A DNA stretch of 64,000 bases from Homarus americanus (lineage: Eukaryota; Arthropoda; Malacostraca; Decapoda; Nephropidae): contig NW_024753828.1 in the NCBI RefSeq assembly GCF_018991925.1, forward strand, positions 5,949,942-6,013,941, given 5' to 3'. Made by a program: the position numbers and the translations under genes. Positions within the stretch are counted from its first letter, which is position 1. Every line of letters begins with the position of its first letter. Below are positions 26,935-51,873 of this stretch, piece after piece. The notes beneath the pieces are model-generated. The model ran no database searches. It saw only the letters and a program-made list of their open reading frames with translations, and was not told the DNA's origin.

Positions 26935-29900
26935 CTAAACGAGGCTTCTGACTTTGCAAGGTCTGTAGTCCATCACCACAGCAAGCTCGTCCTGAAAGTC
27001 CATGGGTCTCAGTGGGCAGGTGGTGGAGATGGTTAGACGCCCCTTGACGAATAGGCTGTCTAGCTTCCAGTCGCCGAGTTCACTGTAGAGGAATGTGAGA
27101 AGTGTGCTGTAGCCTTCCCCTGTAGGAGCCAAGAGAAGGGAAAATGAGTTTTAAATTTTATAGTAATAATGAATATTTTCATTTGTATGAGAGAGAGAGA
27201 AAGAAAGTCACTTTCCTCTTTAAGAACATACAGAACCATTCAACTGTTAGAACCCAGACCAAGAACTTACAGGTGGTCTTTTCCTTGAGTTGGTCGGCAT
27301 ACTTGATGGTAAGACGGTGCAGGTGGGAGGGCTGGAGGCTGTACTTGGTGTGCCAGCTGCTGCGGTCAGCCACCAGCTTCAGCAATCTTACCATGTCCCG
27401 TAACTCAGCTGTGAACAAAAAAGAAGTTAACAGTTTGATTTTTTTATAGAAACAAAATTACGTGAGCTGCCAGTAAACAATGTGAGCTGTTATATACAAA
27501 TTGAGATGTTTATAAACAATACTGTTTTTTGTGACCAAAATATACAACTTTTCTCTGCCCCCATCAAGCCACAGTCAGTGAACGAACTGTTTGACACCAG
27601 TTAAAAAAATGGTTCTTGCATCTTGCTGTAGTCTGTCCTCACTCAGAGCTACGATATACTGAGCTGGACGACAAACCCACACCATTGTTTACACCACAAC
27701 GCTAAGTTAACTGTATACAGGTATTAAGATTCAATCCTCAATGAGATGATGCGACTGAACTTGGATGGTTTGTTTACTGTCAACACTAAGCTATGAGGTG
27801 TATGAGGATGGTATGCATACCGTTGTTCCTGATGATGTCATTTTCCAGGAAGGTGAAGGACACATCGGTGAGCCTGTGTCCATCATCCCACGTCTTCCGC
27901 TGAGGGACGGCCAGGGAGAAGAACATGAGGGGGCCGGAACTGTTACGGAGGTCCTCCACGCTCTGTCTCACTGTCTCTGGTAACTCCTGCAGTGAAGTTA
28001 GCCTCGAGCAGTCCTCCCAAGACCTTCCTGCCGGGTTGATTCGAGAAGTCATACTCTCATATTAAGTGTAAAACATCCAAAGCTTCTCCTTAAATAATTC
28101 ATATTACCACCTGAAGATTCCCCCTCCCTTATTTTATTTCACAATAATATTAAACACCCTAACCTAACCTAGAACACTCTGTTACCTGAGGCACTTTAAA
28201 CCAACAAATGATACAACCAGGTAACGTCTTCACACACCTGCAATCAGAGGAGTGAGGTGGACCCGTGTGGCTTCGTTCTTGATGGTGATGGTGACACTGA
28301 GGTCGTTGGGTGTCTCTTTGGCCTGTATCTTGGCTCCGGGTATTACCAGGGTGTCCACCAGAGCACGTAGCCTTTTTAGAGACAGAGAAAGAAGTCACCT
28401 CAGACGATGTACTCACTTGATAAAAGATGTGTAAAGTGAGATAGAGAAAGAGAGATAAATGGAAGAAACATTAAAGCAAATACTCACTCGGAGAAGATCT
28501 TGTTTTGTAGTCTCTGAGTCTTGAGGAAGTCCTCCTTGTCGGCAAAGTCTATTTTCTTGTGTTTCCTCCAGCCCAACGCGTACAACTCGCTATTAGTGTC
28601 GAAATATATCTGTCCAGAGAAGATCCGCAGGTCACTCAATAATAATAATAGACACATCAATACTATAAATAAATACAACAATCACAACATAAAGAGTATT
28701 AACAATAACACTAAAAATAATATACTAATAACTACAATAATAACAATAACAAACTACACAATAATCACAACATAAAGAGTATTAACAATAACACTAAAAA
28801 TAATATACTAATAACTGCAATAATAACAATAACAAACTACACAATAATCACAACATAAAGAGTATTAACAATAACACTAAAAATAACATACTAATAACTA
28901 CAATAATAACAATAACAAACTACACAATAATCACAACATAAAGTATTAACAATAACACTAAAAATAATAACACTAATAATAACAATAACAATAATAACAA
29001 TAACAAACTACACAATAATCACAACATAAAGTATTAACAATAACACTAAAAATAATATACTAATAACTGCAACAATAACAATAAATAAACTACACAATAA
29101 TCACAACATAAAGAGTATTAACAATAACACTAAAAAATACTAATAACTACAATAATAACAATAACAAACTACACAATAATCACAACATAAAGTATTAACA
29201 ATAACACTAAAAATAATATACTAATAACTGCAATAATAACAATAACAAACTACACAATAATCACAACATAAAGTATTAACATAACACTAAAATAACATAC
29301 TAATAACTACAATAATAACAATAACAAACTACACAATAATCACAACATAAAGTATTAACAATAACACTAAAAATAACATACTAATAACTACAATAATAAC
29401 AATAACAAACTACACAATAATCACAACATAAAGTATTAACAATAACACTAAAAATAATATACTAATAACTGCAATAATAACAATAACAAACTACACAATA
29501 ATCACAACATAAAGTATTAACAATAACACTAAAAATAACATACTAATAACTACAATAATAACAATAACAAACTACACAATAATCACAACACAAAGAGTAT
29601 TAACAATAACACTAAAAATAATATACTAATAACTACAATAATAACAATAACAAACTACAAATACATTAATAACAATACCAACCACAACAGTCATCCACAA
29701 CCCTGTACAGTATGTGGTCTTTACTCACGGTGAAATTGTCAGACGAGTAAGGTAGTCCAAGCATCAGTTCCACCTCGAAGTCGCTGAAGGTGGCGACTGC
29801 TAAGCTCTCATGGTGGGCGCCGGAGAACAGGAGGCGAGAACCCCTTAGTTGGCCCTTAGATCTGGCCACCATCGCCTGGAGTTTCGACAAAAAGGTCTCT

Positions 29901-29991
29901 ACCACCTGCAGGATAAAATAAAGTCCTAAGTCCTCACCACCAGTAGGATAAGAAAACACTTATGTATTACGCTTGCGATATATTCTTTCAA

Positions 29992-30051
<60 letters not shown>

Positions 30052-31605
30052 AGGTGACCAAGAAGAGTTGCCGGATACCATAATACGTTCTTTGCTCTTC
30101 CATCACTACTTAACTATTTTTCTTATATAATCAATAATAATCAACACGTAACATTATTCTATGGTGTTGTCATGACCTTAAAACCTTTAGCCTGTGGTTT
30201 AATGGTATATTAAATTTAATAACCTTAATTGTCCTTATGAACATGTTTAAAGTATGGAAGGGTGCAGTACCTTAGGTAATGGTAAGTTATGATAGGTTAG
30301 GCTAGGTCAATCTACATGTGAAATAAGCTGTGGGAGCGAATCTTCAGGCAGGTGAACTATCTTAAATTGTGCCCCACCTGTTGGAGTCGTTATTCATTTG
30401 TTTCTCTATAAAATATAACAGCTGATAGAACACAAGACACTGGTGAAGAATAGTCCCTGGCCAGATATTCGAGCATGCAAACCTGACCAAATATCCAAAA
30501 CAGACAGTCAGTCAGTCAGTCAGTCTCTCTCTCTCTTACCTTCACGTGTCGCTTCACCGCCAAGGTCGAAGTCTTGTCCAGTTTGTTGAAGATCTCCCTC
30601 ACAACTTGCTCCTGGGGGGTGAGAGGGGGAGGGGGGTTAGTTCTCACTCACCTACATGACATTTCAGTAATCACATTAACAAAAACAATAAAATTATCTT
30701 ATTATTGGTAATGTTGAGTGTGTGTGTGTGTGTTGAGTGTGTGTGTATGTTGAGTGTGTGTGTGTATGTTGAGTGTGTGTGTGTATGTTGAGTGTGAGTG
30801 TGTGTGTTGAGTGTGTGTGTGTGTGTTGAGTGTGTGTGTGTTGAGTGTGAGTGTGTTGAGTGTGTGTGTGTGTTGAGTGTGTGTGTGTTGTGTGTGTGTG
30901 TGTTGAGCGTGTGTGTTGAGCGTGTGTGTGTGTTGAGTGTGTGTGTGTGTGTGTTGAGCGTGTGTGTTTATAATCTGTAATCGTGGACGTTCTAGATTGG
31001 AGAAGAAAAAATCTTATTCAGAATTATCAATACTTTTCTAAGGCAATAAAATACGTCACGCAATGAACCACTGATAAAATTAACCTAGTGATTACATAGA
31101 TTACCCACAACACTGTACCGATAACATCATTACACTATAGGAAAATCTCCGCTAATTCATATTACAAAGACTAATTTTGTAACCTGACTAAAATTTATTC
31201 TTATTATACTATATTCTGATTTTTCTTTGTATTTTTCAGTTATTTTAGTTACATATTATGACTGTAGTGATAATAATAATAATAGCTGATGTTGGTGTCA
31301 AACGTGGAAGGAAGTTTGACAATAACACTCAAAATAAACCCTGAGATTTAAACCATCCTCCTATTAAACCACCTTAATAAATCACCTTTAAATCATCCAT
31401 CCTTCTCATAACTACCCAATCAAACCCTCAAACTAGTAAACCATCTTCCTCTTAACCATATTATTAAACCACTCTAGTATCAGTGCTCTTAAACCATAGA
31501 TCTTAATAACACTTACGAGGGAAATATTTCACTCCTAAGATGATTATGGATCCCGACTATACTGTAGCGTTGACCTATACTACATGATTTAGTTACTTTT
31601 GTTCC

Positions 31606-31644
<39 letters not shown>

Positions 31645-31693
31645 TCTCTCTCTCTCTCTCTCTATACTGATGTTTTGCTCCACTTACCGACAT
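26935..31693 (-). CDS. cGAS-like receptor paralogue A, predicted catalytically inactive (pseudo-cGLR)
   Basis: Eight coding exons read on the minus strand: 31693-31688, 30611-30540, 29905-29729, 28609-28488, 28371-28238, 28027-27821, 27408-27271, 27119-26935 (stop TAG). All introns are GT-AG; phases are 0,0,0,2,1,1,1; the product is 346 aa. The first exon encodes only Met-Ser, chosen because it has a perfect GTAAGTG donor and matches the first exons of paralogues B and C. The fold is Mab-21/cGAS nucleotidyltransferase (residues about 27-340). Active-site positions are degraded: G55-A56 replaces Gly-Ser, D68-F-E70 replaces D-x-D, H164 replaces the third Asp, and S267 sits where human cGAS has Tyr436. 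Residues S227-F-T229 and E232 of the base-contact strand remain. There is no zinc thumb. The reading frame and splice sites are all intact, so it does not look like a decayed pseudogene. By inference it binds nucleic acid or nucleotide, or regulates its active relatives, without making cyclic dinucleotide. It is divergent from paralogue B. Confidence 0.85.
28105..28172. mobile_element. foldback-family fragment in intron 5 of cGLR A
   Basis: CACCTGAAGATTCC, TTATTTTATTTCAC and ACACCCTAACCTAACC appear in family order. A half copy within the 210-bp intron. Confidence 0.5.
28655..29658. repeat. satellite of about 81-84 bp filling intron 3 of cGLR A
   Basis: About 12 units built of CACAATAATCACAACATAAA, GTATTAACAATAACACTAAA, a middle ATACTAATAACT and AATAACAATAACAAACTA. 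G is nearly absent. The array occupies about 1 kb of the 1.1-kb intron. Confidence 0.9.
29998..30050. repeat. (AC)n microsatellite in intron 2 of cGLR A
   Basis: About 26 AC units. Confidence 0.95.
30278..30358. mobile_element. foldback-family fragment in intron 2 of cGLR A
   Basis: GATAGGTTAGGCTAGG followed by GTGAAATAAGCTGTGGGAG and AATCTTCAGGCAGGTGAAC: a right-arm copy. Confidence 0.45.
30714..30968. repeat. TTGAGTGTGTGTG minisatellite in intron 1 of cGLR A
   Basis: TTGAGTG followed by variable TGTG runs, about 17 units. Confidence 0.9.
31606..31662. repeat. (ATC)n and (TC)n microsatellites in intron 1 of cGLR A
   Basis: ATC at 31606-31642, TC at 31643-31662, just before the first coding exon. 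Confidence 0.9.
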
Positions 31694-31771
31694 TGTAAAG
31701 AATTTCTAAGAAGCAGTAGCGTTAGTTCTGCTCAGTCCAGGAGTGATGAAGTTCTGTTTGTTCTGGATGAT

Positions 31772-32085
31772 TGTGGTGGTGGTGAAGAGGGTGTGGTGGT
31801 GGTGAAGAGGGTGTGGTGGTGAAGAGGGGTGTGGTGGTGAGGGTGTGGTGGTGAAGAGGGGTGTGGTGGTGATGTGGTGGTGTGGTGGTGGTGATGTGGG
31901 GTGTGGTGATGTGGGGTGTGGTGGTTGTGTGGGGTGTGGTGGTGAATGTGGGGTGTGGTGGTGAATGGTGGTGTGGTGGTGAATGTGGGGTGTGGTGGTG
32001 AATGTGGGGTGTGGTGGTGAATGTGGGGTGTGGTGGTGAATGTGGGATAGTGGTGGCGTGTGGTGAATGGATTGTGTGTGGGAAG
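31772..32085. repeat. G-rich GGTGTGGTGGTGAATGTG minisatellite upstream of cGLR A
   Basis: About 18-bp units with GGGGTGTGGTGGTG cores, beginning 80 bp upstream of the start codon of A. Confidence 0.9.
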
Positions 32086-32118
32086 TGATATTGACAATAG
32101 TAGTGTGTAGTGGTGTTG

Positions 32119-32282
32119 TCAATAGTGGTAGCTTCTAGTAGTGGTGATATCCAGTGTTGCTGTGGCGCTGGTGGTAACACTGGTGGTGATGGCACTAATG
32201 GTGGTAGCACTGGTAGTGTTGGTAGCACGAATGTTAATAGCACTGGTGGTGGTGGTGGCACTGGTGGTAGCACTGAGTAAAG
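32119..32282. repeat. (GGT)n-rich degenerate trinucleotide region
   Basis: CACTGGTGGTAGCACTGGTA-type units. Confidence 0.75.
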
Positions 32283-32557
32283 TTCAACAGGATAGTTGTT
32301 GTGGTGACGAATATAAAATCGATACTTGTTCACAATACACACGGGACAGAGCGACTGACTAGCTACCTCCCTGCCTACTGACTGCCCCAACTCGACGTGT
32401 ATGACTCACGTTCAGCTGGTGGTGGTGGTGGTGGTGGAGTGTTGTGGCGACGCTACGGACACCCTCCCGTCCCCCGTAACCCCACCCCCCAACACCCACA
32501 GTCCCCCACAGACTCTCGCTCACTCACACTCAGCGGAATGTTGTCGTTGCTGAGGTG

Positions 32558-32621
32558 ATGTTGGTGATAACTCTTTTGATCTGCTTGTTAGTTTTACCTG
32601 TATATTATATTAATGCTGATG
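32558..32621 (+). CDS. candidate first coding exon encoding a signal peptide
   Basis: ATG followed by a strongly hydrophobic 21-codon run (MLVITLLICLLVLP...YINADG), ending in a phase-1 donor GTAAGTC. Small, hydrophobic and phase 1 is typical of first exons of secreted proteins. The upstream 100 bp are C-rich and free of microsatellites (a possible promoter or 5' UTR). It lies on the opposite strand from cGLR A, starting about 865 bp beyond A's start codon. I could not find a convincing second exon before cGLR B, so the rest of the gene may be far away or absent. Confidence 0.35.
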
Positions 32622-32661
32622 GTAAGTCTTTTAATATTTGTATTAATCTCTCGTATGATTT

Positions 32662-32663
<2 letters not shown>

Positions 32664-32710
<47 letters not shown>
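32664..32710. repeat. (CT)n microsatellite
   Basis: About 22 units, shortly after the candidate signal-peptide exon. Confidence 0.9.
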
Positions 32711-32712
<2 letters not shown>

Positions 32713-33293
32713 CTGTTTTTATCTCCGTTTTTGTTTAATTTTCATTCTATTTTCTTCAATCATCAATATTCACTTATTTATTATTTGTTTGTAATGTTTA
32801 TCTCGCCCTGTTTACCTTGTTTAGTCATGTTGTTACTCTACAAGTAATACATACCTTATAACACGCCAAAGAGAGGCAAATGGCCTAATAATAAGACGTG
32901 TGTGCAGGTGTTAATTACCGTGATCTCGCACACCTGCCTGACGCGTAGATACATGTGTGAAGTAGGTGTTGAACAAGTTTTTTTTCTTCAAGTTTTGTAA
33001 ATTAAACCCTTTAATCATAGACACTGTTGGTGAGAGAGAGAGAGAGAGAGCAATTGTTAAGAACGAGAGGAACGACAGGCAGACAGAAACAGATCGATGG
33101 AACGAGAGATAGTAAGAACGCCCCAAAAAGATAATTTATGTCAACTAATTAGATATAAAATAATAATAATCTGACCACAGTATATCATTATATCGTTTTA
33201 ATCTGGCGCACAATATTGACTGCTTAACCGCTTACCGCACCGAGGAATGTATACGGTACACACTGACTAATTCATGCCGAGCGACCCCACTAA
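32711..33293. other. no gene seen
   Basis: Mixed sequence with a (GA)n at 33032-33048. Confidence 0.45.
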
Positions 33294-33332
33294 CCTAACC
33301 TAACCTAACCTAACCTAACCTAACCTAACCAC
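33294..33332 (-). repeat. (CCTAA)n run, 7-8 units
   Basis: Perfect CCTAA units, in inverted orientation relative to the TTAGG array 470 bp downstream. Confidence 0.85.
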
Positions 33333-33751
33333 TTCCTGGAACTGTGCTATCGCCCACATTACAAATATAGTGTTATTGGGCTAGAGGGTCACGATAAAGA
33401 GATAGTCAGGGATAGGAATTTGTTTTGTTATATTTTTTTAGTTATTATGAGTAGGTGATACTGTGGGCTTTACGGGTAATGGAGGCAGCAGACATTGCAA
33501 TATTTGAAGTAAGTTTAGGTTAAAGGGAAACGAATCCAATTTGTAATTTTATTCGTCAATTTATATTATTTTAATTATTTGATTTCTCCTTGATTCGCCC
33601 TTTTCTTTCATAATTTTCTGATACAAAAAAAAATTGCGAGTTTTCCTCTTCATTTCATTTTAGAATTTATTGTAAAGTTGTCTTGTTCTACAGTTTATTC
33701 CCATAATCTTTCTTCTCTTGTGTTGCCATTTATATTCCGTGCATTTTGAGA
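33333..33751. other. no gene seen
   Basis: AT-rich, unremarkable. Confidence 0.4.
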
Positions 33752-33912
33752 CACCCTAGTCTAACCACCCCAACGCTTTAATAACCAGATGGATTATGTT
33801 AGGTTAAGGTTAGGTTAGGTTAGGTTAGGTTAGGTTAGGTTAGGTTAGGTTAGCATTAGAGTGATTTAATCTTCAGGTTAGGTTAGCTTAGGTTAATCTT
33901 CAGGTGATCTTA
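33752..33912. mobile_element. foldback-family copy with (TTAGG)n core
   Basis: Left part ACACCCTAGTCTAACCACCC, a core of about ten AGGTT units at 33798-33852, then a right arm with two TTAATCTTCAGGT words ending AGGTGATCTTAAG. Confidence 0.55.
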
Positions 33913-34335
33913 AGACAATAACACTTGATAAAATAATGAGAAGAAAAGAAAACATTAAAATAGAATGAAAAAATAAATAAAATAAATAAAAAAACAAATG
34001 ATAAACTAAATAAAATAAAAGAAAGAGGAGAAACAATAAAATAAAAAGTAAATATAATAAAAGAAGATGAAATATAAAGAGAATACGAAAGAATAGACAA
34101 ACAAGAACAAGGGAAAAAAACAAGAACAGGAGTAGAAGAATTACGAGAAAAATGAAAACAAAGGAATAAACAGAGAAGAACTAAAAGAAGCATAATAAGA
34201 CAAAGAAAATCAAAATAAGAATTTAGAGTGAAATAAGAGAATTGGAAAAGAAGAATTATAGACAAATGGGATAAATAGTAAGAACTAAAAGAAAATGATA
34301 GAGAAAAACGGAAGATGAACGAAATTTATTGTTAT
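33913..34335. repeat. A-rich purine tract
   Basis: AAATAAAAGAAAGA-like low complexity on the plus strand. Confidence 0.7.
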
Positions 34336-35587
34336 AAATGGATGATAATGAACAATAATGATACTATTCAGGAGTGTAGCTGTACTGTCACTTCTAAAGT
34401 ATTAGTGCCTGAGGTCTAATGTGTACATATAAATTTATCAAAGAATAAGATATACTGAGTCATGTACACTCCTATACACACATAGCAATAGAAGCAAGTA
34501 TACTCATTTTCCAACATGTAAAATTTGGGTGAAATATTTGTGTTTGAGAGGATTATCGGTCGTTATAAGATGTCAGTTATAGTGCATATGGTAACCTCTC
34601 TCCCTCACCGGGCCCTCCTCCCCTCAAGGTCCCAGCAGCCAAGCCTCAGCTACGCTCCCTGACTAGACATGACTTGTACACGTCAGTCAGTCTGTAAAAT
34701 ATTTACTTGTGGTGTGTACAATACGTGTATGTGTCCCTGTACGTGTATACTTAAGCCGGAGATAAAAGTGCAACATTTTATCATTAAAGGCATAAAAGTT
34801 TGCCGTACAACACTACGTCATTGATTGAATCGTCGCCCTGTGTGTGTTGCTGCTCACACGGTCAAGGAAGTGATCAGTTGCCTGGTGGTCCTATAGAATC
34901 ATCAACTTGTGCGTTTGTCCCGTACCGTATATGCGTCTCGAGTGTCTAAGACCCGTATGTTTTTGCGAGGGACGTAAACCTACCAATCTTTATCTAATCT
35001 TAACTACTAATATCTCGGGTACATCAAAATAACGTTTTTTAGTCCAGGCAAACATGTATTATGTTATAACAAGGTGCAGGACTTTCACTGTGGTGACCAT
35101 GTTATAAAGGTGAGACTCACATACCTGTAAAATACTAGTGAACTTAATCATCGAGGCCTAAAGGCTAAATCCGTATTGCGAGATAAGGAACAATTTCATG
35201 CGGCGTAGCTCGGTGGTTATCATACATTAGGCAAGGGAGCCGGAAGTAGATAGCTCACCAACACACACCACTGAAGTCAGACAAGACTTATTCATGTTAA
35301 AACTCACTGCCTGTAGTTACTTGGTGGTAGTAATAATTTATTTTTATGACCCTATGACCCTCTTATTATATGAGTCTTCCTCATCTACAAAGAAGATTAG
35401 TTGATCAATCTCTATTCTTTTTTTGGTACATCTAAAATGGTTGTACAGACGGAACTTAGGAAGGACTAATTGAAGAAAACAACGTCCAGCAGCTGGCAAC
35501 TGGAGGGAGCAAAAAGGGTGAGCGTTAAATGCTCTCCTCCCCACAATCCTATCATATAACGTCTTACTACCACTGAGCTGAGGCAAG
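34336..35587. other. upstream region of cGLR B, no gene seen
   Basis: Non-repetitive sequence. An A-box-like TAGCTCGGTGGTTA at about 35211-35224 lacks a matching B-box. No TATA box is convincing near the start codon of B. Confidence 0.4.
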
Positions 35588-38500
35588 ATGGCACGGCGTA
35601 ATGAGGTAAGTTAGTATACTTTAGTTCATTATCATTTTATGTACTAAGTATGAATATGTACAGTTAACACTCATTACTGCCGATCCTCACTCTCGACTTA
35701 TGTAAAGTGACACTAAACTTGGGGGCATTTTGAAGCCATATGCACCTCCAATTTGGAGATTCACGGCGCCATAAGCTCGTTGAACAGGTCACACACATAA
35801 GATCGTGGGTTCGAGTCCTGGCGGGTTGAAATTGTTGTTGATTATATATAGTGGGGTATGCTATAACGAACGTAATTGGTTCCAGAACCTCGTTCGTTAT
35901 AGCATTCGTTCGTTATAGGATTAATCCGTTCCAGGCCCCCAAATACAACCGCTTAAAACTGAAAAAATTATGTGGAAAATGTAAAAAATACGGTACTTTA
36001 TCTTACCTTAGTGTTGTTCAGCATGCACGTATCCCTAAACACTGGCACATCACTATGGAGTCTTGGCTTTAAGGTCCTCAAACAATTGTTTAGCCTTCTC
36101 ACTTCACTAATGCTATCACCTGCCATTTCTTTCTCCTTTATCCACACTAAGAGTAAATTTTCCATCTCTTCAATCACATTACACTTTGCTTTGCTAAGTC
36201 TAAAGATTCCCTTAGCCACTTGCACAGTTTTTAACTCCTCTTTATTCTTCAAAATCGTACATATAGTCGATTTAGTCATCCCATACATCACTAAGTTTGG
36301 CAATGCTTCTTCCATTCTCACGTTTCTTTATAATTTCTTTCTTAGTTTCAAGGGTTATTAGCTTTCTCACTCGCTTTGGACGACTCATTGTTACAATTGT
36401 ATACTTGTATAACAAAATAGTTATACAAATAACGCGAATTTCCACATCAAAAGACGAAATGTCAACAATAACAGTGAGACAAAGATGGCGCCTGTTGTGG
36501 GTCGCGGTACAACAATATTCATGCGCCAGGTGAAGTAGTCCCGTATTCATCCGCCTTCGTTGTAGGAGTTTCGTTCGTTATAGCATTCTCAATTTTATAG
36601 GTAAAACCGTTCGTTATAGGAATATTCGTAGTAGGATCCGTTCGTTATAGCATACCCCATAAATAAATAAATAAATATGCCTATTAAAGATTTTATTTTT
36701 CTTATGGCAACTAAAATTAAATTATTTCCATGTTTTATTGAACTCTCTCCTAGGATGTAGTAGTGAGGAGCGTGTTAGGGCGTCTCAACAAGGTTTCGTT
36801 CGCTGTCAACCAGAATAAGGAGGTTGGTTAATAATAAACTAATTACTGTACACTACGTTAGTTAAAATTAATGGAAGATTTACCAATAGCAATTTAAAAG
36901 TCCTAAAAAATAAGTATGGATTATGGTAGAATTCAGTTGATATATATTTCCTGTATAACAAATTCAGACATCACATAATCCCCTTTAGCTGTAATAAAAT
37001 ATTCTGCCATGACTATAAACTACTGTATTATGATTTGCTTTTCATTTGAGTAAGTTATTCTTGTTCCAGCCAATGTTTTTATCGTTTTTAACATGAATTT
37101 CTGTGCTTGAAACTGAGTGAGGATTTTGCCCCAATGGTTGTGGGGATGAAGTTACTAATAGTGATTTACTGATATAACAGCTGGTGAACAAGTTGGTGAC
37201 AGAATTGGGTCATTGCCTCCAAAGGGAGGAAGGTACTCTGAAGGGTTCCACCATTAGGCACGCCGGCAGTGCTTACGAGAACCTGGCTGTCAAAAACCAG
37301 GCAGACTATGACCTGATCCTACAGCTCGGGGAACCCTTTGTTAGTAACAATTTTACGGTATGTATGACGTTAACTATAGCCAAGTTCTCATGTTTAATCA
37401 ATAATTTTTCTCTCATAACTGTTGAGATAAAAGCACTTCTAAAGCAGGGTTTACAGGTGCAGTAAGTTAAGCATTTTACTTTACAGTACTTAGTGTATAA
37501 ATGCACCACCAGATCAACAGTGTTGCCAAAGTTTTACTAAGGTAGCCTCAAAATCAGATGTGCAAGTAATCAAATGTGGTTTGATGACAGTGCCAACAGA
37601 TGCCTTTTGATTGACCTGAAAAGAAGGCTGGCAATAATTATTGGCAGTGGCATGATGGTAACTCGATACCATATTCTATAACCACTTGCATTTTTATTTG
37701 TAATATACTGTACATCATTTATTATACACCTGTACTGTACTTTGTCACTTTCTTTGTGGGTAGTGACTGAAACCTTCAAATAAATTAAATACAGTACTTT
37801 CAGATTACCTAAATGAATTTTTTAATATTTTTATTAATATTTGCATTTGTTGAGATTTTTTCTCTTGATTTGGGTTTTGACAGGTTTGGATTTGACAGGT
37901 TTGGGCCAGGACACATTGTGTGGTTTACAGACACAACTCCTTGAGGTTAGACAAAATGTTTATTATTCTAGATAATTCAAGACTCTCATGAAAGGTTTAT
38001 GCTGTATACATTGCAAAGAAGAGAAAACCCCTTAATAAGAAATAAGGACATATTCTGCAGCAAGAGGGGCAACCTAAAAACGGAGGAGCTGCGCAATGAC
38101 ATCTTTGAAAGGTAATCTTGTGTTGCGTTTTTGCTTGACAGAAACTACAATAAAGTACAAACTGTATATGGAAGATATGTGGGGTGTATAAAGGTCTTTT
38201 TACCATTGTTAAGTTAGTTTTTAAGGAATACTGTACGGTATTACAGTATTGGATTTCTAAAAGTTTCATTTCAAATTTTATAGTCTTGATACATGATAAC
38301 TAAGCACAGTACTGCTGCAGAAAGCATTCAATTAAAGATTCATGTAGATTATGTACAGTAGTTTTTAATAGTACTGTATACATGATGGATGTACAGTACT
38401 ACACATGATACGGCATTAGTATGCAGATAATTCCCATTTCAAGGTTGTACATGCCACCTGCAAATAGATTTGGTTACCATTCATTACAGTATCTATGAAT

Positions 38501-41500
38501 ATGTCTCTTCCCTTTGAGGAACTTTTCCACATATGGATGCATTTCTGTTAATATTAATTTATTACTTCAACCATTTGTCAGTTTGCTTATACATTTGGGT
38601 AGTTCTTTTTAATGAGTTTTGTTGTCCATGTTAGTTCAGTAAGAAACTGGAGTACAGTACCCAGAGAAAACACTTCTCAACCCTGACCCAGGGAGTTTAG
38701 CTGGAAGAATCTTGTGAGAGAAGACCATGCTACCACTGTACAGTACCACCAACAAATACTGTAGTTAATGAGTTGATTCTGATTGGTGGTTGATATAATT
38801 ACTTTTATTTAATTTTCAGACTGAAGAAAATCCTGAGCACCATCAAGGTCCCTGGGATGACACTTAAAGCATATCCCAAGTTGGCAGCCATGCAACTGAT
38901 CCTCACAACCGGTAATAGAGAGCCAATTGAGATGGATCTCACACCTCAGATTGTTGGTAAGATTTCTTTTGTAATACATTAGTTACAATTTTAATTTGAA
39001 CATGGGAGTGGATAGGATATTTTTTACTTAATGTGAACTACATAAGCTCATTTGGTGAAGAAGAGTTAACACAGTGTTCAGGTACAGTAATTAAGTATTA
39101 TCAGTACAAGTACTGTATAGATTTTTGTATAAATGAAAAATAAATTAATTCCCATGTGGTGACAGTATCACAAACTGGATGCCTTCACTTAGGTATAAGT
39201 TTAATTGTATTTAAAACTTGTGTACAGAGTACAGTACTTGGTTATTTGTTTTGTTGGTGTAATTGGTCCTCTTAATCATTTCAAACATAAAATGTACAGT
39301 ATAGTATATACAGTTGTATTAATGAAGCTTAGGGCTATAATGTACTTCCAATGTACTGTATAGACTGTACAGTATTAATTTTTCCAAGCAAATTTTGCAT
39401 TTAAATTTTTGCTCTGTCCAGCCTGTGAGTGGAAGAATTGCCCTGGTCTGGTATCCCTGGAGAGTCTCCCTCGGTGCCTTGTAGTCTACGTTGAAAGCAA
39501 CTCCAGAAGAAATGCACCAGTTCTGTATTTTACACCAGCAGTATTAAGTGCTCAAAAGAATGAAGCTCATGAGGTCTGTAATATGGTGAGCTTTTCCTTG
39601 TTGGAGAAGCATTTTCTTAAAGAAGAAGGTCAGTGGATGTGACAGTTTAATTACTTTGTCTTTATACTATACATGTGATGACTAAATACTACACAGTTCT
39701 GTACTCGGCTGAAGTCCTACATATCATTTATACAGCTTTCCACTCTTAGGTAAGATATGAGAAAGGTATTGTCCAGCTACCAAATATCACTAAGTTTCTC
39801 TGGATACTATTAGTTTTCTCCTATACAATACAGTACTGACACTAGACAATGAAGGACAATCTCATCAATAACAATGAAATGATTAAACAAGCCACCACCT
39901 TCCCCTACCTAAGCAGTAAATTACTGTATAACAAATGCACTAACATAGACATAAACAGGTTAGAGTTATTTTAATATCCTTTTAATCTTGAGTATGTTTT
40001 CAGTATAAGGGATATCATAGTAATTGGCTAAAGACAAGTGAAATGAGAGTCAGTTTGCACTTAACTTTATGTTGGCAACATTACACCAGGGTGAGAAAAA
40101 GTCGTGTGTAAATTTTTTTCATAACATTGTAACTGAAAATTAGTCATATGATCTGTTTATATCTGTAAAGTTGGTGACAGCTAGCAGATGACAATTAACT
40201 AAGTTATGCTGGGGTCATAATGATCACTGTGTCCATGCCTCTGGTTCACCAAAGTTTGTTCCCCTGATTTCTGAAAATGTATTCGGAGTGAGCAATAAAC
40301 TTTAGTTGGTTTCTTTAACTACATCCCTAGATTACACATTTTTATTCCATCTGATTTTGTACATTGATATTTTGTAGCCAGTGATGGTACAGGTTTTATA
40401 ATCATTGTTCTTTTGCTTTTTATATAAATAATTTTTTCATGCTTGAAAGTATTTTGATCCAATTTATTATCATTCCTCATACAAATATAAATTACAGTTA
40501 ATATCCATGATATGGTGAGGCTGGCCAAGCTTGTCAAGGATCAACAGAATTGGACAAACGATTATGGTCTGAAATCCTTCCATCTGAAACGTCTGGCCAT
40601 CAAGAACGCTGACACACTGAGGACCATGACAACATGTGAGTGGAGTTACGTTGTATATAATTATTGATACTATTTAGCACCATCAATAGGATTCTGAAGC
40701 ACTTGTCTGGAAATATAAGCAGTTAAGAGGTGTACAATAAACACTCATCGGGGGCAGATCCAGGAATATCAAAAGTGAGGGTCCCAGAAGTTGTGGGTGA
40801 GGGAACATGGCGAGCACAGTGAGCCCTTCCAGCTGGGGGTTGGCAGTCCCCCCTCCCCCTGAATTATGATTTTTTAAATCTGACCAATATCATGGGCATT
40901 ATGAGGCCATTTTGAAGCTATGTGTACTTGATATTTGGAGATATTCTGGTCAATAGTAGTTACTTTTTATTTAAGAAAAATACCTGAGTACAATACTGTA
41001 CTGCATTAAAAAAAAAGTACCCTGTATTAGAATTTTCTGAAAAAAAAGGGGGAGTCCAGACCCCAGGACTCCCCCTGGATCCGCCCTGCTAATGAGAACA
41101 TCGTTGCACTCAAATGAGCTTGAGCTCTGTGGAAGAGAACTACTGTACTGGGTACTTAACGGTATATAGGCATTTGAAAGAGAACAACAGAAGAATTGAT
41201 TTATAACATTAAACTCATCTGAAAGCAACATCTGCTTCAATGCTTGTGCAATAGTCAGTATTTAAAGAAGTAATCCTGTAAACCACAATATTACTGTATA
41301 TTTGTAAATAGTTACAATACGTAGTTGACACCTGTGTATGCTGATGTCTTCATTTTTTAACCTTGACAGGGAATGGCTTTAAGGCTCTACTGCAATTCCT
41401 TGATGTGGAACTAGAGGAAAAAGGAGGCATAACTGACTGCTTCGTGAACGGCAATTTTATCTATTACATAACAAAGCCCAATAAAGTGAAGGGTTTCTGT

Positions 41501-41557
41501 CATGCCCTGCGTGATGTACAGCGATGGCAGCCTGATAGGCTGAATTCCATGGTGTGA
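35588..41557 (+). CDS. cGAS-like receptor paralogue B, predicted active nucleotidyltransferase
   Basis: Exons: 35588-35605, 36754-36822, 37181-37357, 37972-38111, 38820-38956, 39422-39628, 40498-40635, 41370-41557 (stop TGA). All introns are GT-AG with phases 0,0,0,2,1,1,1; the product is 357 aa, a normal size for a Mab-21/cGAS core with almost no N-terminal extension. Catalytic signature: G58-S59, then D71-Y-D73, then D174 in a short beta strand (EMDL). These align with human cGAS Ser213, Glu225/Asp227 and Asp319. S237-F-S239 and E242 match the nucleotide-contact strand (human Ser378, Ser380, Glu383), and F277 replaces stacking Tyr436. The cGAS zinc-thumb Cys cluster is absent at the exon 6/7 junction. 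Family knowledge: cytosolic sensors that on ligand binding join nucleotides into a cyclic dinucleotide for STING. The ligand (double-stranded RNA or other) cannot be read from sequence. A Tigger-like element sits in intron 1 and a MITE in intron 7. Confidence 0.9.
35768..35834 (+). other. tRNA-derived (SINE-like) B-box sequence
   Basis: Contains GGGTTCGAGTCC, a perfect RNA polymerase III B-box, about 40 bp after an A-box-like ATAAGCTCGTTGA. The outer bases CGCCA and TGGCG can pair, but the D and anticodon arms do not fold, so this is a decayed tRNA or SINE head rather than a working tRNA. It lies in intron 1 of cGLR B, just before the Tigger remnant. Confidence 0.3.
35852..36659 (-). mobile_element. 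Tigger/pogo-like DNA transposon remnant in intron 1 of cGLR B
   Basis: Terminal inverted repeats of about 20 bp: TGGGGTATGCTATAACGAAC at the left, its complement at the right ending CATACCCCA, flanked by TA on both sides as expected for Tc1/mariner/pogo insertion. Subterminal GTTCGTTATAG copies repeat this word. On the minus strand two frames resemble CENP-B/Tigger DNA-binding domains: one begins MSRPKRVRKLITLETKKEII at 36388, the next (within 35998-36321) reads YGMTKSTICTILKNKEEL. The catalytic DDE part is missing, so it is non-autonomous. Confidence 0.75.
40750..41087 (+). mobile_element. short inverted-repeat element (MITE), copy 1, in intron 7 of cGLR B
   Basis: Begins GGGGGCAGATCCAGG and ends CCTGGATCCGCCC; the ends are inverted copies of about 14 bp. 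The interior shares AACATGGCGAGCACAG and a run of CCCCC/GGGGG words with the second copy at 47462-47780. There is no coding capacity. The superfamily cannot be assigned. Confidence 0.65.
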
Positions 41558-41672: not shown

Positions 41673-42033
41673 TTGAGAGACTATGAGTTGATCATGTGAG
41701 GAAAATCAGTAATGGTATAGCTGGTGACATTAATTAGATCTGCTCCAGGATCTTAAAATTATGTACTGATCTTGGCTTAAATTCAGCATTGTGCTTGGTG
41801 TTGTACAGTACTACATAATTTCTATACAGTACTACATAATTTCTGAACATTCTCCACAGATGTTTCCTATACTGTACTCATTCAAGGTCAATGTATGTAT
41901 GTATGTAACTGCCTGTCACCGTTTAAAAGAGTGGCTCTTTACAGGGACCAGCTGTCTTTTTTTTTTTTTATACGGGTATTAGCCCACCCGGACACAGGTC
42001 ACCAACCCACATCAGGGCTCGGGGGGCGAAAAC

Positions 42034-42095
<62 letters not shown>

Positions 42096-44439: not shown

Positions 44440-44567
44440 TATATGCACCTTCATTTGAGATGGTAATATTCTGGTAAGAACAATTAACAGGGAATACACT
44501 ATATAATATAAAACACCAATGTACCAAAATATTATTTATTAATTTTAGGTACCCGAAAATTTGTCAT

Positions 44568-44645
44568 CCCTGTTGTCATTCTTATCTTATCATCACTATT
44601 GTCATTCTTATCTTATCATCACTATTGTCATTATCATCATGTTAC
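44568..44645. repeat. 26-bp tandem repeat
   Basis: TTGTCATTCTTATCTTATCA plus TCACTA, about 2.5 copies. Confidence 0.8.
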
Positions 44646-45701
44646 TGTGTTCTTATTATCACTGCTGTCATTCTCATCACCATTGCTGTCATCTGATTAA
44701 CCTTTTAGTATGAAGAGAAAGGTTCCCTCACCAGAAGTAAAAAACAGGAATAATAAGGTACAATAACATGTTTTGGGGTAGTGAAATAACTCCATACTTA
44801 ATCAATATAAATGTACGTATAGGTTTTTGCTCTCATTCATCCTTAGGAATAGCTACCAAAGAATCAGAGAAATAATATTCTAGTTATTATCACCAATACC
44901 TGGAAGAAATAAACATTGTAAACTGTACATACCAAATGCACTTAGGGTTTTTATCTACAGTATAACCTAAAACTGTATATGAAAAACAGTGGAATGTAAC
45001 TGAAGAGTAGAATGGTTTGTACAGTATAAGATCACCTTTCCAGTTCCAGGTGACAACTAGGAAAGTGTTATCAGATAAATATATGCCTAAACTTTGGTCT
45101 ATAGTATAATATTATAACATTAATATCTACCAAGGCCAGTAACAGTTTGTTTAAGGATTTGGTTCACACAAAAGGTACAGAAGAAATTCCTAAATATTTC
45201 CAAATCCTTTGTTCCTTTAATAACTAACTTATTTCACCTTCAAATGATTCCAATATATTGTTTCACACCTATACCTCTAGGAATATAGAGTAATCTTCCA
45301 GTAATTTACGCAAAACAATGATGCAGAAATGAGAATACCACGGACTGGAGGTTACGGTAGCTATTCCAGGTACAGTAATGTAATAATTTGGGGGAATTCA
45401 TATGATGGGGCTCTATTTAGTAATGGAATCAGTATGTAAAAGAAATAAGGCCATATTTACTCCATCTTTGACTAGCCAAAATGTGGCAGTTCCTCAGCAA
45501 GGATAACTAGAGAACTTGGTGTTTTAACTCTTAATATTGACAACATGACTAAGTGATCCACCCTGTACAGTACTCAGGAGGGGGCATATAAGCCTTTATG
45601 GCCTCAGGATCGCACTCTTGGCTCAGAGTTGTAATTTACGATTACTGTATCAATATTTTGCAATAGTGACAAAAAAAAAATCAAACTACATTCTTCTGTC
45701 A
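44646..45701. other. downstream of cGLR C, no gene seen
   Basis: AT-rich and TACAGTA-rich; no clear AATAAA for the minus-strand transcript was found close to the stop. Confidence 0.4.
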
Positions 45702-48700
45702 CTACACCATAGCTTTCAGGTCTTCTGGTGTCAGCTGTTGTGCCTCAGTCAGCGCCCGCCGGAGCTTCCTCACTTTACCGAGATGTTTCTCGTAGTATAT
45801 GAACTGTTTCTCCACAAAACAGTCGGTCAGTCCACTACAAGCCTTTAGCTCCCTGTCTATGCATTTCAGTAAAGCCTTGTAGCCATTCCCTGGGTACAAA
45901 AAAAGATAAAAGTTTTTCAATACAGTACAGAATACCTAAAGAGTATTACAGTCTTAAATCCTATGTTAAACATTACAGACAAAAAAAAATTATAAACAAT
46001 TTATTATATTCTCTGAAACCTTTCGCTTTAAATACTTCACTGTCACTGTAATCAACTCAGATTACAGGATATTCAGATTATGTACATAAGTTATAACCAA
46101 ATACACTGTACCCTTTATTACATCTTTCCTCAACAAACTGCTCATAATCAACTCAGGACACGAGTACAGTAACTGTTATTAGTGAGAGGTGGCCATCATC
46201 CAGTCGTGGTGATGATGCTTCACTATAATATTAGGCTACAGAAAAGTGGCACTGGATGTAAAAGTACTCACAGGGCGTCATGGACCTCAGTGTGTTGGCA
46301 TTCTTGATGGCCAGACGCTTCAGATGAAAGGATTTTAGACCATACTCCGTTGTCCAGTTACGATTATCTTTGACGAGCTTAGCCAACCTCACCATGTCCC
46401 AAATTGCAGCTGGAAATATTGATGTGTAAATATGCAGTCTCATAATAAAGTTTATAAGATGATTCACTGCAGTACTAAAGTAACCAGGAATTTCTTCTTT
46501 AGTGCCACAGATCACCTGGTTGATTCTCTTAGAATTAATAAAGTACTGTACAGTAAGTTCTCGTATAACGTCGCCCCGATTAACGGTGTTTCGATACAAC
46601 GTCGTTAGCAAAGGGAGGCTCAGGAACGTAACTCCCATATTTTATCTATTTCTCATGGGGAAAATTGATTTGTTTAACGTTATTTCCTATAACTTCGCAT
46701 TTTCAGGAAAGTAACCACGACTTTAACTTTTAATTTACTTCTATCCTCTTCGCCACTGGTTGGCTTGTTCGCCGCTTGGGCGATCGGTCACATCTCTGTC
46801 ACGCACTGTTGGCAAATACTGGGCATGCACCGGCTCCTGAATGTACCTGAACCCGCTCCAGTGTTGGTCAAGTCTTGTCTTGAAAGAGCTCACACTCTGT
46901 GCCATCACAACACTCTCTGGTAGATTGTTCCAAGAGTTTACAACCCTCACTCCAAAAAAGTTTGCCCTCACAGTTTTCTGGACTTGCAGCTTCTTCAATC
47001 TTGAGCTGTGACCCCTTGTGGGGCGAGCGTCAGCCAGCTCCAAGTAAGGACACTCGACTGAGTAGTGCCCCTTGAGATGCTTATACACCTCACTAGGTCC
47101 CCCCTTGCCCATCTGTAGTATAAGCTAGGCAAGTTCAGGCCCTCCAATCTCTCAGGGTAGCTGAGGTGCCGAAGTGCAGGCACCAGTCTGGTGGCCCTCC
47201 TTTGAACATTTTCAACCAACTAACATTCATTTTCTTTTAAACTTAACATTACTAACTGTTTCTCAAACAACTTTGACAATTTGTGGCAATAACTGAAAAG
47301 ATAAGATTGTTATTTCCATTATTTCCTGCAATGTGAAGCACAATATGTAAGTTATGATTTGTATTCTATTCTTTGTTACATATTAGTTTATGAACTTTTC
47401 ATTACATTCATTCCATTAATGCATCAGGTACTTGTACTGATACAAGTAGAGTACATCGCCAGGGACGGATCCAAGTATATAAAAAGGGGGAGGGGTTCAT
47501 GAAGTCGTGAGTGGGAGAACATGGCGAGCACAGAGAGCCCACTCAGCTGGGAGGTTTTGTAGGGCGCTGTAAGGCCCCCCCCAAGAATTTTTTTTAAATC
47601 TAACCAATATCATGGTCATGTGCACTTAATATCAGGAGATATTCCGAGGCTAATAGTACTGTAATTACTTTTTACTTTACAAAAATGCCCGAGTATAATA
47701 CTGCATTAAGGAAAAAATATTGGAATTTTCTGATTAAAAGAGGGGGTCCGAACCTGCAGGACCCCCCCCTGGTTCCGCCCATGCATACTACAGTACAGTG
47801 TACAGTATTAACAGTCAACAAAATCATAAAATTGGTATATAAAAAATTTCAGTATACTATTCAAAAACTCTTCAGATTGGTCATAATCACTATCATGAGA
47901 AATTAATCAAGCTGGCCATCACATTACTTACTTTCCTCCCTAAAAAACTTTTTCTCCATCATGTAGCAGCCAACCATATTGCAGATAGGATGGGAAGGCG
48001 ACCTCTGAGTCCTTGGTGCTGCTGGCGTGAAGTACAGAACTGGTGACCCGTTTCCATCACTTCCCTCAATGTAGTCCTTAAGGCACTGAGGGAGAGTATA
48101 CAGAGGCACCAGGCCAGGACACTCATCCCAGGAACTAACTGTGGACCAGAACAGTGGAGAATGTTTTTCACTAACTTCACATATTTGAGGTCAAAAGTTT
48201 TAAAAGCTTAGATAAGATACTTAAAAGTTTAAAAGCTTAGATAAAAAGGTCAAAAGGGCAGTAATTTTCAAGATGTAAGAACTTTTCATACAGTGTACAC
48301 TTGTGCTGTGTATATCTGATGTCTCTATTGTAGGTGCGTGTGGTGCGTGTGATCCATGTATATGTTGATAACCACATAGGACACAAGAAAACACGAAGTT
48401 CCAAAGCGCTTTCGTGGATGTGTTCGATGTCTGACTCAGCATAGGGTCAGACCGCTAAGAGGGCCCCTAGTCCCGACTGTTATATGACAGCCACTGGATA
48501 TATGTTGTAATGCTTGGCATCTCTGCTGGACCACACTCATGTAAATAAAATCACGGAGATTAATAACCCGAGAAATTAATCAATAATAACGTACGATAAA
48601 TTTGGTGAAAAGCAATAATTCTGGGGTACCGTTACGATAATTCTCATCTGAGCTTGTCTGCTGTCAACACTGTCCTCAATGTGAAGTCAACAAGGTATCA

Positions 48701-51700
48701 AAACAGTTGTATCCTGCAGGTGCAGAAAAACGAAGGACGTAAATACTGTACAAGGAGCTAGCGTTTGCAGCGCAGGAGAGGCGCCCGAATAGCTAACAAC
48801 CAATCAGCAAGTTTCCCCTACTGAAACACTGTGTAAATACGTGGATCATGGCCACTTATGGAGAATATTTTGATTAATATTGAAGAGTTGGGTGCATGTA
48901 AGGCAATAAAAAAATCTGATATAATAATAAAACTATCATGTAATTCTATATTTGATAGTATATTCGATAGGGCCTAAAACAAAGCGTATGGGCGCTGTCC
49001 GATTTCATTAGTCGCTTGTGAATTTTGTGTAAAATATTGCTAATTACTGAAATATGATTAAGATTTTAATATCATTATCCATAAGATACTTTAAATATGG
49101 GTGAACAAATTTATTACAATTCTGTAATTGCAAAAATTAAGACTTAAATTAACATGAAATTAGTCGTATTTCGTGTTTATATATGCGAATACCTGTAAAC
49201 AACACAATGTAGCCGCGAGACGAGAGAGCATACGCAGTGGACAACTTTACCTGTAGAAAATATGGATCAAGCCTTGCAAGTAATAGAGGAAAGATATTAC
49301 ACCAATACCTCACAAATCCTCAATTCTTACAGTACAATCTGCCACTGAAGTAGAAAGCTATCACGGTGTCCTTTACGTTCAGTTCTCACAGTTTTATTGT
49401 TTTCTGAAGACTGTGTTGTAGAACAGTTATTCCCAAGACTCGGTACGGTCGTATTTTTTATTGACAGTCCGGGAAAGCTAACGCGTTAGCTATTCCTCGC
49501 ATCTTAAAATGCCGTACAAAATTTGGCCTTATTGTAACTATACCAACCGGCACTGGAGCTACAACGGGAAGGGTGGTGTACAATGTGTCAATACTACTAC
49601 CATTACTACTACTACTAATAATAATACATGTACTTGGTCACTATTGTATCCAGATGCTGTATAGATAGACACTCACGAGCAATCTGAGGTGTTATATCTA
49701 TCTCAATCGTCCTTCCTTTCTTACTACGAAGGTTCAGCTTCATGGCAGGAGACTGTGGGATTGACGTCACTGACACACCCTGCACTGTGATGGTCCTCAG
49801 AATCTGCTCCAGCCTGAACATGGACAATTATTCTATTTTGTTTGCTGTCAATGACAATTAGATCTGTAACTGCTCAAACAAACTGAAGAATACTCATATG
49901 TACAGTAAATTAACCTTAAAATGTATTCTTTACTTGAATTAATGTGATCACTGCACTAATTTTATGACGTCAATATTTAAAAGATATCAGAGAAAGTTTT
50001 CAAAAGCTAAAATTTCTTACTTCAACTTTTTCATTACAGAGAATGGGACCAAGACTAAACTAGTACTGGTGTACAGAAACCATCACCAAATCTTCAAAGT
50101 ACAATGGATCATCAACTGATAAAGGTTACCTGCCACCAGCCACTTTCTCCTATACGTAATTCAGAATATTGCATTCATTAAACGAATTTTAAAGCAATAA
50201 CACCATCTAACTACCGTACTACATTATACACTTAATGATATCAAGCATAGTAATATCTTAAAAGTATAGTCTAGCTTCTTTTAATAAAATTTAGCTTCTA
50301 CAAACTTTACTGGAGTTTTCTAACATGAAAGAAAGGCAAAGACTTGTAGACAGAATACCTTTCGAAGATGTGGATACGTAGAGCCTCACTGTTCAAGTTA
50401 CGCCTGTTGCTACAGAAGTTCTTCTTCTTATTGATATTCACATTCCTTTTTTTGTTCAGACTGTAATATCGGTACTTTGATCTCTCCTCCCGAGTTATCT
50501 GGAGAAAAGATATTAAGGTCACTCCATCTGCTTGGAGGAACAACATAATATTCACAGGTATAAGATCTCACTCAACAATGTCCCACAGAACTAATAAAAT
50601 GTGTGATTTTTTCTTTCCATGTAGTGTAAGTGTGTTCATGTAAACGTTCTCATCCATGCACACATGGTCTGACCCACCTTAAAGTTGCTACTGACAAAGG
50701 GTTCTCCAAGCACTAAGATCAAATCAAAGTCTTCCTCCATACCAACAGTGAGGTTTTCATAGGCAGTGCCACAGCGCCTGATGGTGGTGCCCTTCAGAAT
50801 GTCCGTCTCCTCCTGCAGGCGATGATTCAGTTCTTTCACCAGCTTGTTCACCATCTGGTGCCGGAGTACAATATGAATCAAATACTGTTAATCATTTACA
50901 GTGTTAGTTGAACAAATATTAAAAACTGTTCACCATCTACAAATAAACTGAGTTATTAGATGCACTAACATTTTTTTTCTGGTTGACAGCACACGAGGCC
51001 TTTTTATTCATCTCATGCAAAATCTTCTGCACCAACACGTCCTGCGGGAATAACAAATAAATAAATTACCGAGACATACACTGCTGTGCTTGTATCATAA
51101 CTGTGCTCACTAAGTAAGATCAACCATGGGAAGAAATTTTCTAAGAAATATTATTATTATTATTTTGATTAATATCATTATTGAACATTGTTATGATTAG
51201 TGTATTATCATCAACTATTTTTATTACTATTATTACAGGGTATTTAGTGTCTTGTATTATAATTAACACACACACACACAACCGCTGCTTGTTGATAAGC
51301 ATTCAATCTAGGAATATTAATTCATCAATATATAACACCAACTAGAACCAATGTATTACCTGTAAATCATTCATGTGCTCAGTTGTCGTCTTCTGTTACT
51401 GAACACTCACATATTATATCCAGCATTTATTTATAACTAAATTACTGTGACTACATCATAATACAGCATGTGGCTTCCAATAAAATTAAATATTTGCCGG
51501 TTGACTGAAAAATGTATATAACTATATGAACCTAATTTGTTTATATTAATTTTCTAAATAATAAACAACTATTCCTGAAGGGTTAGAAATGACAACTTTG
51601 TCTCACCTTCCGGTCGTCTCAACATTATCAGTACAGTAACACCATGGTCACCACGTGTCTAATACAAGCAATAATGGTGTGTCATGGCGGAAATTCCTCT

Positions 51701-51873
51701 AAAATGCTCCACTACAGTATTCCCTACTTTTTCTAAAACAGTTACACCACAACTACCACTACTAGCTATGCTACGTAGTTACAATTAGCAGTGCCGCTAC
51801 TGCCAACACTGCTGTCATGTAGTAAACAGAATATCGGGTATAAAGCATCACTTACCTCTTCTGGGAGCGGCAT
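45702..51873 (-). CDS. cGAS-like receptor paralogue C
   Basis: Exons on the minus strand: 51873-51856, 51041-50970, 50854-50678, 50498-50359, 49813-49677, 48138-47932, 46409-46272, 45889-45702 (stop TAG). All introns are GT-AG with phases 0,0,0,2,1,1,1; the product is 358 aa. Exons 3-8 have exactly the same lengths as in paralogue B, and in exon 7 I count 36 of 45 residues identical to B against 23 of 45 between A and B. Active-site acids D72, D74 and D175 are present, but the Gly-Ser motif is G59-T60, and the strand that is S-F-S in B is G238-C-Y240 here, with E243 kept. F278 replaces human Tyr436. There is no zinc thumb. It is probably still a nucleotidyltransferase with changed nucleotide preference; that is inference. 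It is convergent with B, with about 4.1 kb between the stop codons. Intron 6 carries a LINE fragment and a MITE. Confidence 0.88.
46741..47219 (-). mobile_element. LINE (non-LTR retrotransposon) 3' fragment in intron 6 of cGLR C
   Basis: Minus-strand frames match the C-terminal end of LINE reverse transcriptases: VENVQRRATRLVPALRHLSY and then, after a frameshift near 47105, a part with RGHSSRLKKLQVQK and VVNSWNNLPESVV. The RT catalytic core is absent. A related copy lies at 56946-57250. Confidence 0.75.
47462..47780 (+). mobile_element. short inverted-repeat element (MITE), copy 2, in intron 6 of cGLR C
   Basis: Same element as 40750-41087: starts GGGACGGATCCAAG, contains AACATGGCGAGCACAG, ends CCTGGTTCCGCCC. 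Same plus-strand orientation, so it is antisense to gene C while copy 1 is sense to gene B. Confidence 0.65.

Follow-up and report, generated by a model that had tools for sequence, protein, structure and literature searches.

The DNA analysed here, referred to below as the window, is a stretch of 64,000 nucleotides from Homarus americanus (RefSeq assembly GCF_018991925.1, contig NW_024753828.1, positions 5,949,942 to 6,013,941 of the forward strand). Within the window, region 26935-51873 holds three intact predicted genes, rebuilt from the sequence, which we refer to as genes A (minus strand), B (plus strand) and C (minus strand). Together with a fourth gene, D, which lies on another contig, they constitute, on the basis of sequence comparison, a separate divergent clade within the cGAS/Mab-21 nucleotidyltransferase superfamily.

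Gene models and their shared exon plan

The first-pass annotation of this DNA had described three eight-exon genes in 25 kb, with equal intron phases and the strand order minus, plus, minus. These claims held up on rebuilding: the outer ends of our models coincide with those it gave, each gene has eight coding exons, and GT-AG borders are present at 21/21 introns. The models are as follows.

26935..31693, minus strand: gene A, 346 residues, predicted pseudo-enzyme; spliced model, 7/7 introns GT-AG, aligned to B and C
31688-31693, 30540-30611, 29729-29905, 28488-28609, 28238-28371, 27821-28027, 27271-27408, 26935-27119, minus strand: exons of gene A
35588..41557, plus strand: gene B, 357 residues; spliced model, 7/7 introns GT-AG; cGAS match at E 1.7e-4
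35588-35605, 36754-36822, 37181-37357, 37972-38111, 38820-38956, 39422-39628, 40498-40635, 41370-41557, plus strand: exons of gene B
45702..51873, minus strand: gene C, 358 residues; spliced model, 7/7 introns GT-AG; Pfam Mab-21 match of 33.6 bits (cut-off 24.1)
51856-51873, 50970-51041, 50678-50854, 50359-50498, 49677-49813, 47932-48138, 46272-46409, 45702-45889, minus strand: exons of gene C

The intron phases after exons 1-7 are 0,0,0,2,1,1,1 in A, B and C alike and, in a three-way protein alignment, all seven intron positions share columns. The placement of intron 1 is gap-dependent, as exon 1 of gene A encodes two residues and a four-way alignment puts its end at column 2, not 6; the six remaining positions are firm. 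Exons 3-8 have the same lengths in B and C (177, 140, 137, 207, 138 and 188 nucleotides), and those of A measure 177, 122, 134, 207, 138 and 185 nucleotides. Genes A and B are oriented head to head across a gap of ~3.9 kb, and B and C tail to tail across ~4.1 kb.

The same plan was found in the fourth gene:

C13551:7720473-7729152, plus strand: gene D, 356 residues, seven coding exons; 6/6 introns GT-AG

The six introns of gene D match the phases found after exons 2-7 of A-C and, in the four-way alignment, four of them fall in identical columns, one is a single column off and one is five columns off (gappy N-terminal part). The identity of D with A, B and C is only 25-29%; its catalytic site is intact, with an Arg between the first two Asp residues. 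Since a gene on another contig has matching phases, the exon plan predates the cluster. The seven coinciding introns in three genes, along with the six same-phase introns in gene D, also led us to reject chance or mis-splicing as the source of the gene models.

Pairwise protein identity is 53% for B/C, 34% for B/A and 28% for C/A, with blastp E values of 8e-132 to 7.5e-44. In the A-C pair, the local alignment ends at residue 300 of A, leaving out ~46 C-terminal residues, and the A-B and B-C alignments are nearly full length. There is purifying selection between B and C, for which the ratio of nonsynonymous to synonymous rates (dN/dS) is 0.33 (NG86) or 0.36 (YN00), values which indicate that the reading frames are under constraint; the pairs involving A are saturated or almost so. 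Searches of the whole window with the A, B and C products (tblastn) returned, beyond the three genes, only matches with E values of 0.1 to 0.6.

Several repeats and other frames lie within or between these genes. A minisatellite with an 83-nt period (28579-29742, 11 overlapping register copies) takes up the greater part of intron 3 in gene A. Two inverted TTAGG-type (CCTAA)n arrays (33290-33330 and 33808-33853) lie between the head-to-head genes A and B and are possibly a rearrangement scar or merely a common microsatellite. Frames in intron 1 of gene B (35998-36577, minus strand) resemble the N-terminus of a Tigger/CENP-B transposase (CENP-B_N E 0.055, below the cut-off), and frames in intron 6 of gene C (46741-47219, minus strand) resemble by eye the tail of a reverse transcriptase from a retrotransposon without long terminal repeats (non-LTR), with no Pfam match. 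In addition, a 59-nt repeat, 81% alike in its two copies, is present in intron 7 of B (40779-40837) and intron 6 of C (47493-47551).

Active sites and superfamily relationships

The exons that carry the catalytic positions, as placed by aligned columns, and the C-terminal helix are these.

29729..29905, minus strand: gene A exon 3, degraded site with Gly-Ala for Gly-Ser and D-F-E for D-x-D
28238..28371, minus strand: gene A exon 5, His at the third catalytic position (TRVHLTPLI)
37181..37357, plus strand: gene B exon 3, Gly-Ser and D-Y-D
38820..38956, plus strand: gene B exon 5, third catalytic Asp (IEMDLTPQI)
40498..40635, plus strand: gene B exon 7, C-terminal helix whose SFHLK lines up with the cGAS segment SYHxK (alignment)
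50678..50854, minus strand: gene C exon 3, Gly-Thr and D-F-D
49677..49813, minus strand: gene C exon 5, third catalytic Asp (IEIDITPQI)
46272..46409, minus strand: gene C exon 7, C-terminal helix with SFHLK (alignment)

The aligned catalytic columns read G,S,D,D,D in both B and D, G,T,D,D,D in C and G,A,D,E,H in A. The same columns read G,S,E,D,D in both cGAS rows and in the cGAS-like receptor (cGLR) cGLR1, and D,N,E,E,Q in MAB21L1. The Gly-Ser...D-x-D...Asp pattern, which the earlier description had ascribed to the whole cluster, is therefore present in B, nearly so in C (Gly-Thr) and lost in A (G-A, D-x-E and His). Gene A is predicted to encode a pseudo-enzyme, and B and C retain their catalytic residues; the lost active site of A rules out that A, B and C are equally active sensors. 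The zinc ribbon, a feature of vertebrate cGAS, is absent from the aligned sequences of all four proteins.

Membership in the cGAS/Mab-21 nucleotidyltransferase superfamily, as originally proposed, was supported by Pfam (for C), by matches to PDB sequences and by profile comparison. Only one of the four proteins passes the curated Pfam cut-off for PF03281 Mab-21 (24.1 bits): C lies above it with 33.6 bits, B below it with 18.4 bits, A has no match, and D has none at E up to 1. In the PDB sequence searches, B matched cGAS (6x59) at E 1.7e-4. The best match for C was 4jlx at E 6.1e-5, with the first row named as cGAS being 4ley (E 0.0026). The three-row profile of A, B and C matched 4jlx at E 1.8e-6, then 5n6i as its first cGAS-named row (E 8e-5) and cGLR1 (8gjy) at E 0.032; there were no mab-21-like 1 rows among the 38 matches of this profile at E up to 10. 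The 4jlx chain, labelled 'Uncharacterized protein' in the PDB table, is pig cGAS. An NCBIfam scan gave a single weak, unrelated match (E 0.048).

Comparison of the A-C profile with a profile of two cGAS rows and cGLR1 by hhalign gave 96.8% over 286 columns (29-335 of 358). These 286 columns begin in the N-terminal core and reach into the C-terminal helices, so that both lobes align, and the homology thus extends across the nucleotidyltransferase core and the C-terminal helix bundle, as expected of a cGLR. Against a profile of MAB21L1 and the genome's own MAB21L the value was 1.2%. As the reference profiles differ in depth, the comparison was repeated with single references, giving 80.4% for mouse cGAS, 71.1% for cGLR1 and 27.3% for a human cGAS fragment, versus 1.3% for MAB21L1, 0.8% for the genome's own MAB21L and 0.5% for its own MAB21L fragment (reversed controls, <=0.7%). 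With gene D added to the profile, the values were 93.8% for mouse cGAS, 89.5% for cGLR1 and 6.2% for MAB21L1.

In trees of 9 or 10 rows, which have long branches, include no insect cGLR rows and contain one MAB21L row and one cGAS row that are fragments, the A-D family formed one clade (support 100/100). The test set for this locus had been whether the three genes would fall inside the mab21 developmental clade; MAB21L instead formed a separate clade in both trees (96/99 with 9 rows, 95/100 with 10 rows). The MAB21L-type genes of this genome are:

C20917:758935-761446, minus strand: two adjacent single-frame MAB21L-type genes, one product of which matches mab-21-like 1 (5eog) at E 5.3e-182

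While MAB21L1/2 share a superfamily with A-D, they differ in forming a separate clade, in having E, E and Q at the catalytic positions and in being encoded in this genome by a single reading frame versus the eight exons of A-C. Vertebrate cGAS, which provides the first named PDB matches of B and C and whose catalytic columns align with theirs, differs in its zinc ribbon and in its first acidic residue, which is Glu in cGAS and Asp in A-D. The metazoan cGLRs have in common with A-D the Mab-21 nucleotidyltransferase core and C-terminal helices (PMC9980059). They resemble B and D in Gly-Ser and three acidic residues, and A-D lack the zinc ribbon, as does the 8gjy cGLR1; however, the C-terminal lobe of A-D is shorter and has no HYF segment.

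Family size and visibility to standard searches

To date the family has four members in this genome, a number that is a lower bound because B and D were the only queries used in the whole-genome family searches. The search with B produced 21 matches at E up to 10, comprising 16 in the cluster, two on C13551 and one each on C27645, C5576 and C19224, these last being weak (E 9.79 for C19224). The search with D produced 11 matches: seven in D itself, three in the cluster and a weak one on C15842 (E 2.22). We rejected C5576 as a further member as its neighbouring frames look by eye like a retrotransposon, and C27645 as it aligns with the same kind of sequence. A scan of viral contigs with B gave seven pattern matches, none of which was confirmed, and no relative was found there.

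Standard queries mostly fail to retrieve the family. With PF03281 as the query and a limit of E 0.001, the genome yielded the two MAB21L-type genes on C20917 and nothing from the cluster or elsewhere. The cGLR1 (8gjy) query found the same two genes, a fragment on C5508 and a weak match on C29269 (E 3.32), with the cluster again absent. For mouse cGAS (tblastn, scaled to genome size), the E values were 7.2 for B and 20 for C, and A-D lie far beyond a threshold of 1e-5. The family is hidden because its exons are each short and diverged. The C5508 match (C5508:196094-196318, plus strand) is like a C-terminal exon of cGLR1 (8gjy; E 3.4e-4), with one internal TGA and a KLPHYFIDKCN segment, and is possibly part of another, more canonical Mab-21 or cGLR gene.

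Elsewhere in the window, a 97-residue membrane-like frame (19711-20004, plus strand) with a sub-threshold TMEM128 match (18.7 bits versus a cut-off of 23.9) is possibly an exon of a neighbouring gene. A Pfam scan of ten other open reading frames in the window gave weak matches to TMEM128, DUF4131, CENP-B_N and APOBEC_N, all of them below the cut-off.

Proposed function and alternative explanations

We consider it reasonably probable that the cluster represents an ancient, fast-diverging branch of arthropod, perhaps decapod, cGAS-like proteins in which B, C and D are messenger synthases and A is non-catalytic. Its fold, ligand, catalysis, coupling to STING and immune role are what we infer from these sequences, along with expression, nucleic-acid sensing and the synthesis of cyclic dinucleotides. 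According to this proposal, the most likely fold of B, C and D is that of a Mab-21 nucleotidyltransferase with two lobes and no zinc thumb, and a basic surface would serve to bind a ligand, be it a nucleic acid or something else from a pathogen. Gly-Ser/Thr and the three Asp residues would then link nucleotides to give a second messenger that a STING-type receptor could recognise, making B, C and D candidate nucleotide-messenger synthases. The computed charge at pH 7 is +19 for C, +10 for B and about +4 for A and D; such basic charge suits nucleic-acid binding, most of all in C. Gene A can still be aligned along its length, yet the third Asp and Gly-Ser are missing from it, which makes a non-catalytic role most likely, and its product might act as a ligand sponge, a partner or a kinase scaffold. 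A more specific version of this proposal, which we put forward only tentatively, is that B, C and D serve decapod STING-type immunity as nucleotide-messenger synthases that have escaped notice, their sequences being too divergent and their genes too finely split for cGAS queries, with A as a catalytically dead sibling that acts as a regulator. They would then be a separate cGLR branch with a conserved exon plan, maybe making a non-canonical cyclic dinucleotide.

A number of observations weigh against the proposed role. Forcing the family to group with MAB21L costs just 0.49 log units (p-AU, from the approximately unbiased test, 0.335), so that cGAS and MAB21L are not distinguished as the nearer sister; the long branches meet at D, of which the tree tool gave a warning, and the two cGAS rows and cGLR1 never formed one group in either tree. 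Gene A alone had no significant match in the PDB, its best cGAS row being at E 0.24. The published active-site motif for cGLRs, h[QT]GS-X8-20-[DE]h[DE]h-X50-90-h[DE]h (PMC9980059), has no strict match in any of the four proteins: A, C or V stands before GS where Q/T is called for, S precedes GA in gene A, GS is replaced by GT in gene C, the acidic pair is D-R-D in gene D, and B, C and D have a spacer of 97-98 versus the 50-90 required. The strict pattern as we coded it also failed 6/6 reference rows, cGAS and cGLR1 included, and we therefore give it little weight as it discriminates poorly. When the pattern was relaxed (G[ST], a free choice of residue between the acids and a spacer of up to 110), B, C and D, both cGAS rows and cGLR1 matched it, and A and 3/3 MAB21L rows did not, one of these MAB21L rows being a fragment that lacks the motif region. 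A first relaxed version, which required two residues before the Gly, had failed the human cGAS fragment.

The upstream regions give a further point against the proposal. The GAAANNGAAA site is absent from 500 bp upstream of all four genes on both strands, as is an NF-kB-like site from the same four regions on the gene strand, the one searched. In its favour, the ATG of gene C is preceded by a TATATA at a distance of 72 nt and by a TCATT initiator at 32 nt; these may be chance occurrences, and there are three more TATATA further upstream. A search for STING (PF15009) gave no matches in the genome and none in 14 control genomes either; as the model was silent in the controls as well, the result for this genome is uninformative on STING. 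STING is described as patchy across arthropods (PMC10732462), and shrimp are described as possessing STING, IRF and Vago antiviral signalling (PMC12928593).

The last paper also provides the most serious alternative, which is that A-D are non-catalytic scaffolds that activate a kinase of the IKKepsilon/TBK1 type, in which case the Asp triad kept by B, C and D would be a structural relic. In Litopenaeus vannamei, three Mab21 proteins are reported to bind IKKepsilon and raise IRF-Vago4 output. All three tested bound LvIKKepsilon, and cyclic GMP-AMP (cGAMP) was undetected with interferon-stimulatory DNA (ISD) or poly(I:C), so that no cyclic dinucleotide synthase came to light among them, although the authors allow for other ligands and other products (PMC12928593). 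The missing catalytic residues of A and the strict cGLR motif, matched by none of the four proteins, are also in line with scaffolds. However, the three Asp residues are kept in three of the four members despite the 25-29% identity of D, which is unlikely for relics, and the shrimp proteins are said by their authors to lack essential nucleotidyltransferase residues, with two of the three modelling well on MAB21L1 (PMC12928593). LvMab21-1, -2 and -3 resemble A-D in being Mab-21-family proteins of a crustacean without a zinc ribbon, and differ in length (1042, 452 and 374 residues; PMC12928593). Since human cGAS was the tblastn query that led to them, at E 1e-5 (PMC12928593), a threshold which A-D do not reach, the LvMab21 genes are probably other genes. 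We regard a scaffold role for the whole family as unlikely.

Decay has also to be considered, as some of the three genes in the cluster, A first among them, could be pseudogenes of a once functional cluster. Gene A has lost its catalytic residues and its intron 3 is swollen by the 83-nt minisatellite; however, its frame is uninterrupted for 346 codons over eight exons, with 7/7 GT-AG introns, and the A-B differences peak at the third codon position (0.67 versus 0.51 and 0.42), as expected under long constraint, making decay quite improbable. We hold it to be very improbable that A-D are diverged developmental MAB21L paralogs without an immune role. The superfamily is shared, the sole Pfam family matched is the Mab-21 model and p-AU for the nearest relative is 0.335, but the MAB21L rows, including the genome's own copy on C20917, are separate in both trees (96/99 and 95/100), MAB21L is missing the catalytic residues kept by B, C and D, and the hhalign values are 1.2% versus 96.8%.

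Insect genomes are reported to often encode groups of related cGLRs that arose by recent gene amplification (PMC9980059), and an expansion of this kind is accordingly nothing new. The apparent novelty lies in the branch, with its conserved exon plan, catalytic residues in three of four members, departures from the motif and invisibility to standard queries. We found no description of such a family among the papers listed from the cGLR literature (from 2023) and the crustacean cGAS/STING literature (from 2019), as covered by mostly non-subscription papers and leaving out the species table of PMC9980059. Surveys that rely on PF03281 or on cGAS queries can undercount animal cGLRs. As catalytic residues persist in three of its members, the family offers concrete candidates for a cyclic dinucleotide synthase, and the loss in gene A beside intact siblings offers a natural comparison of catalytic and non-catalytic roles.

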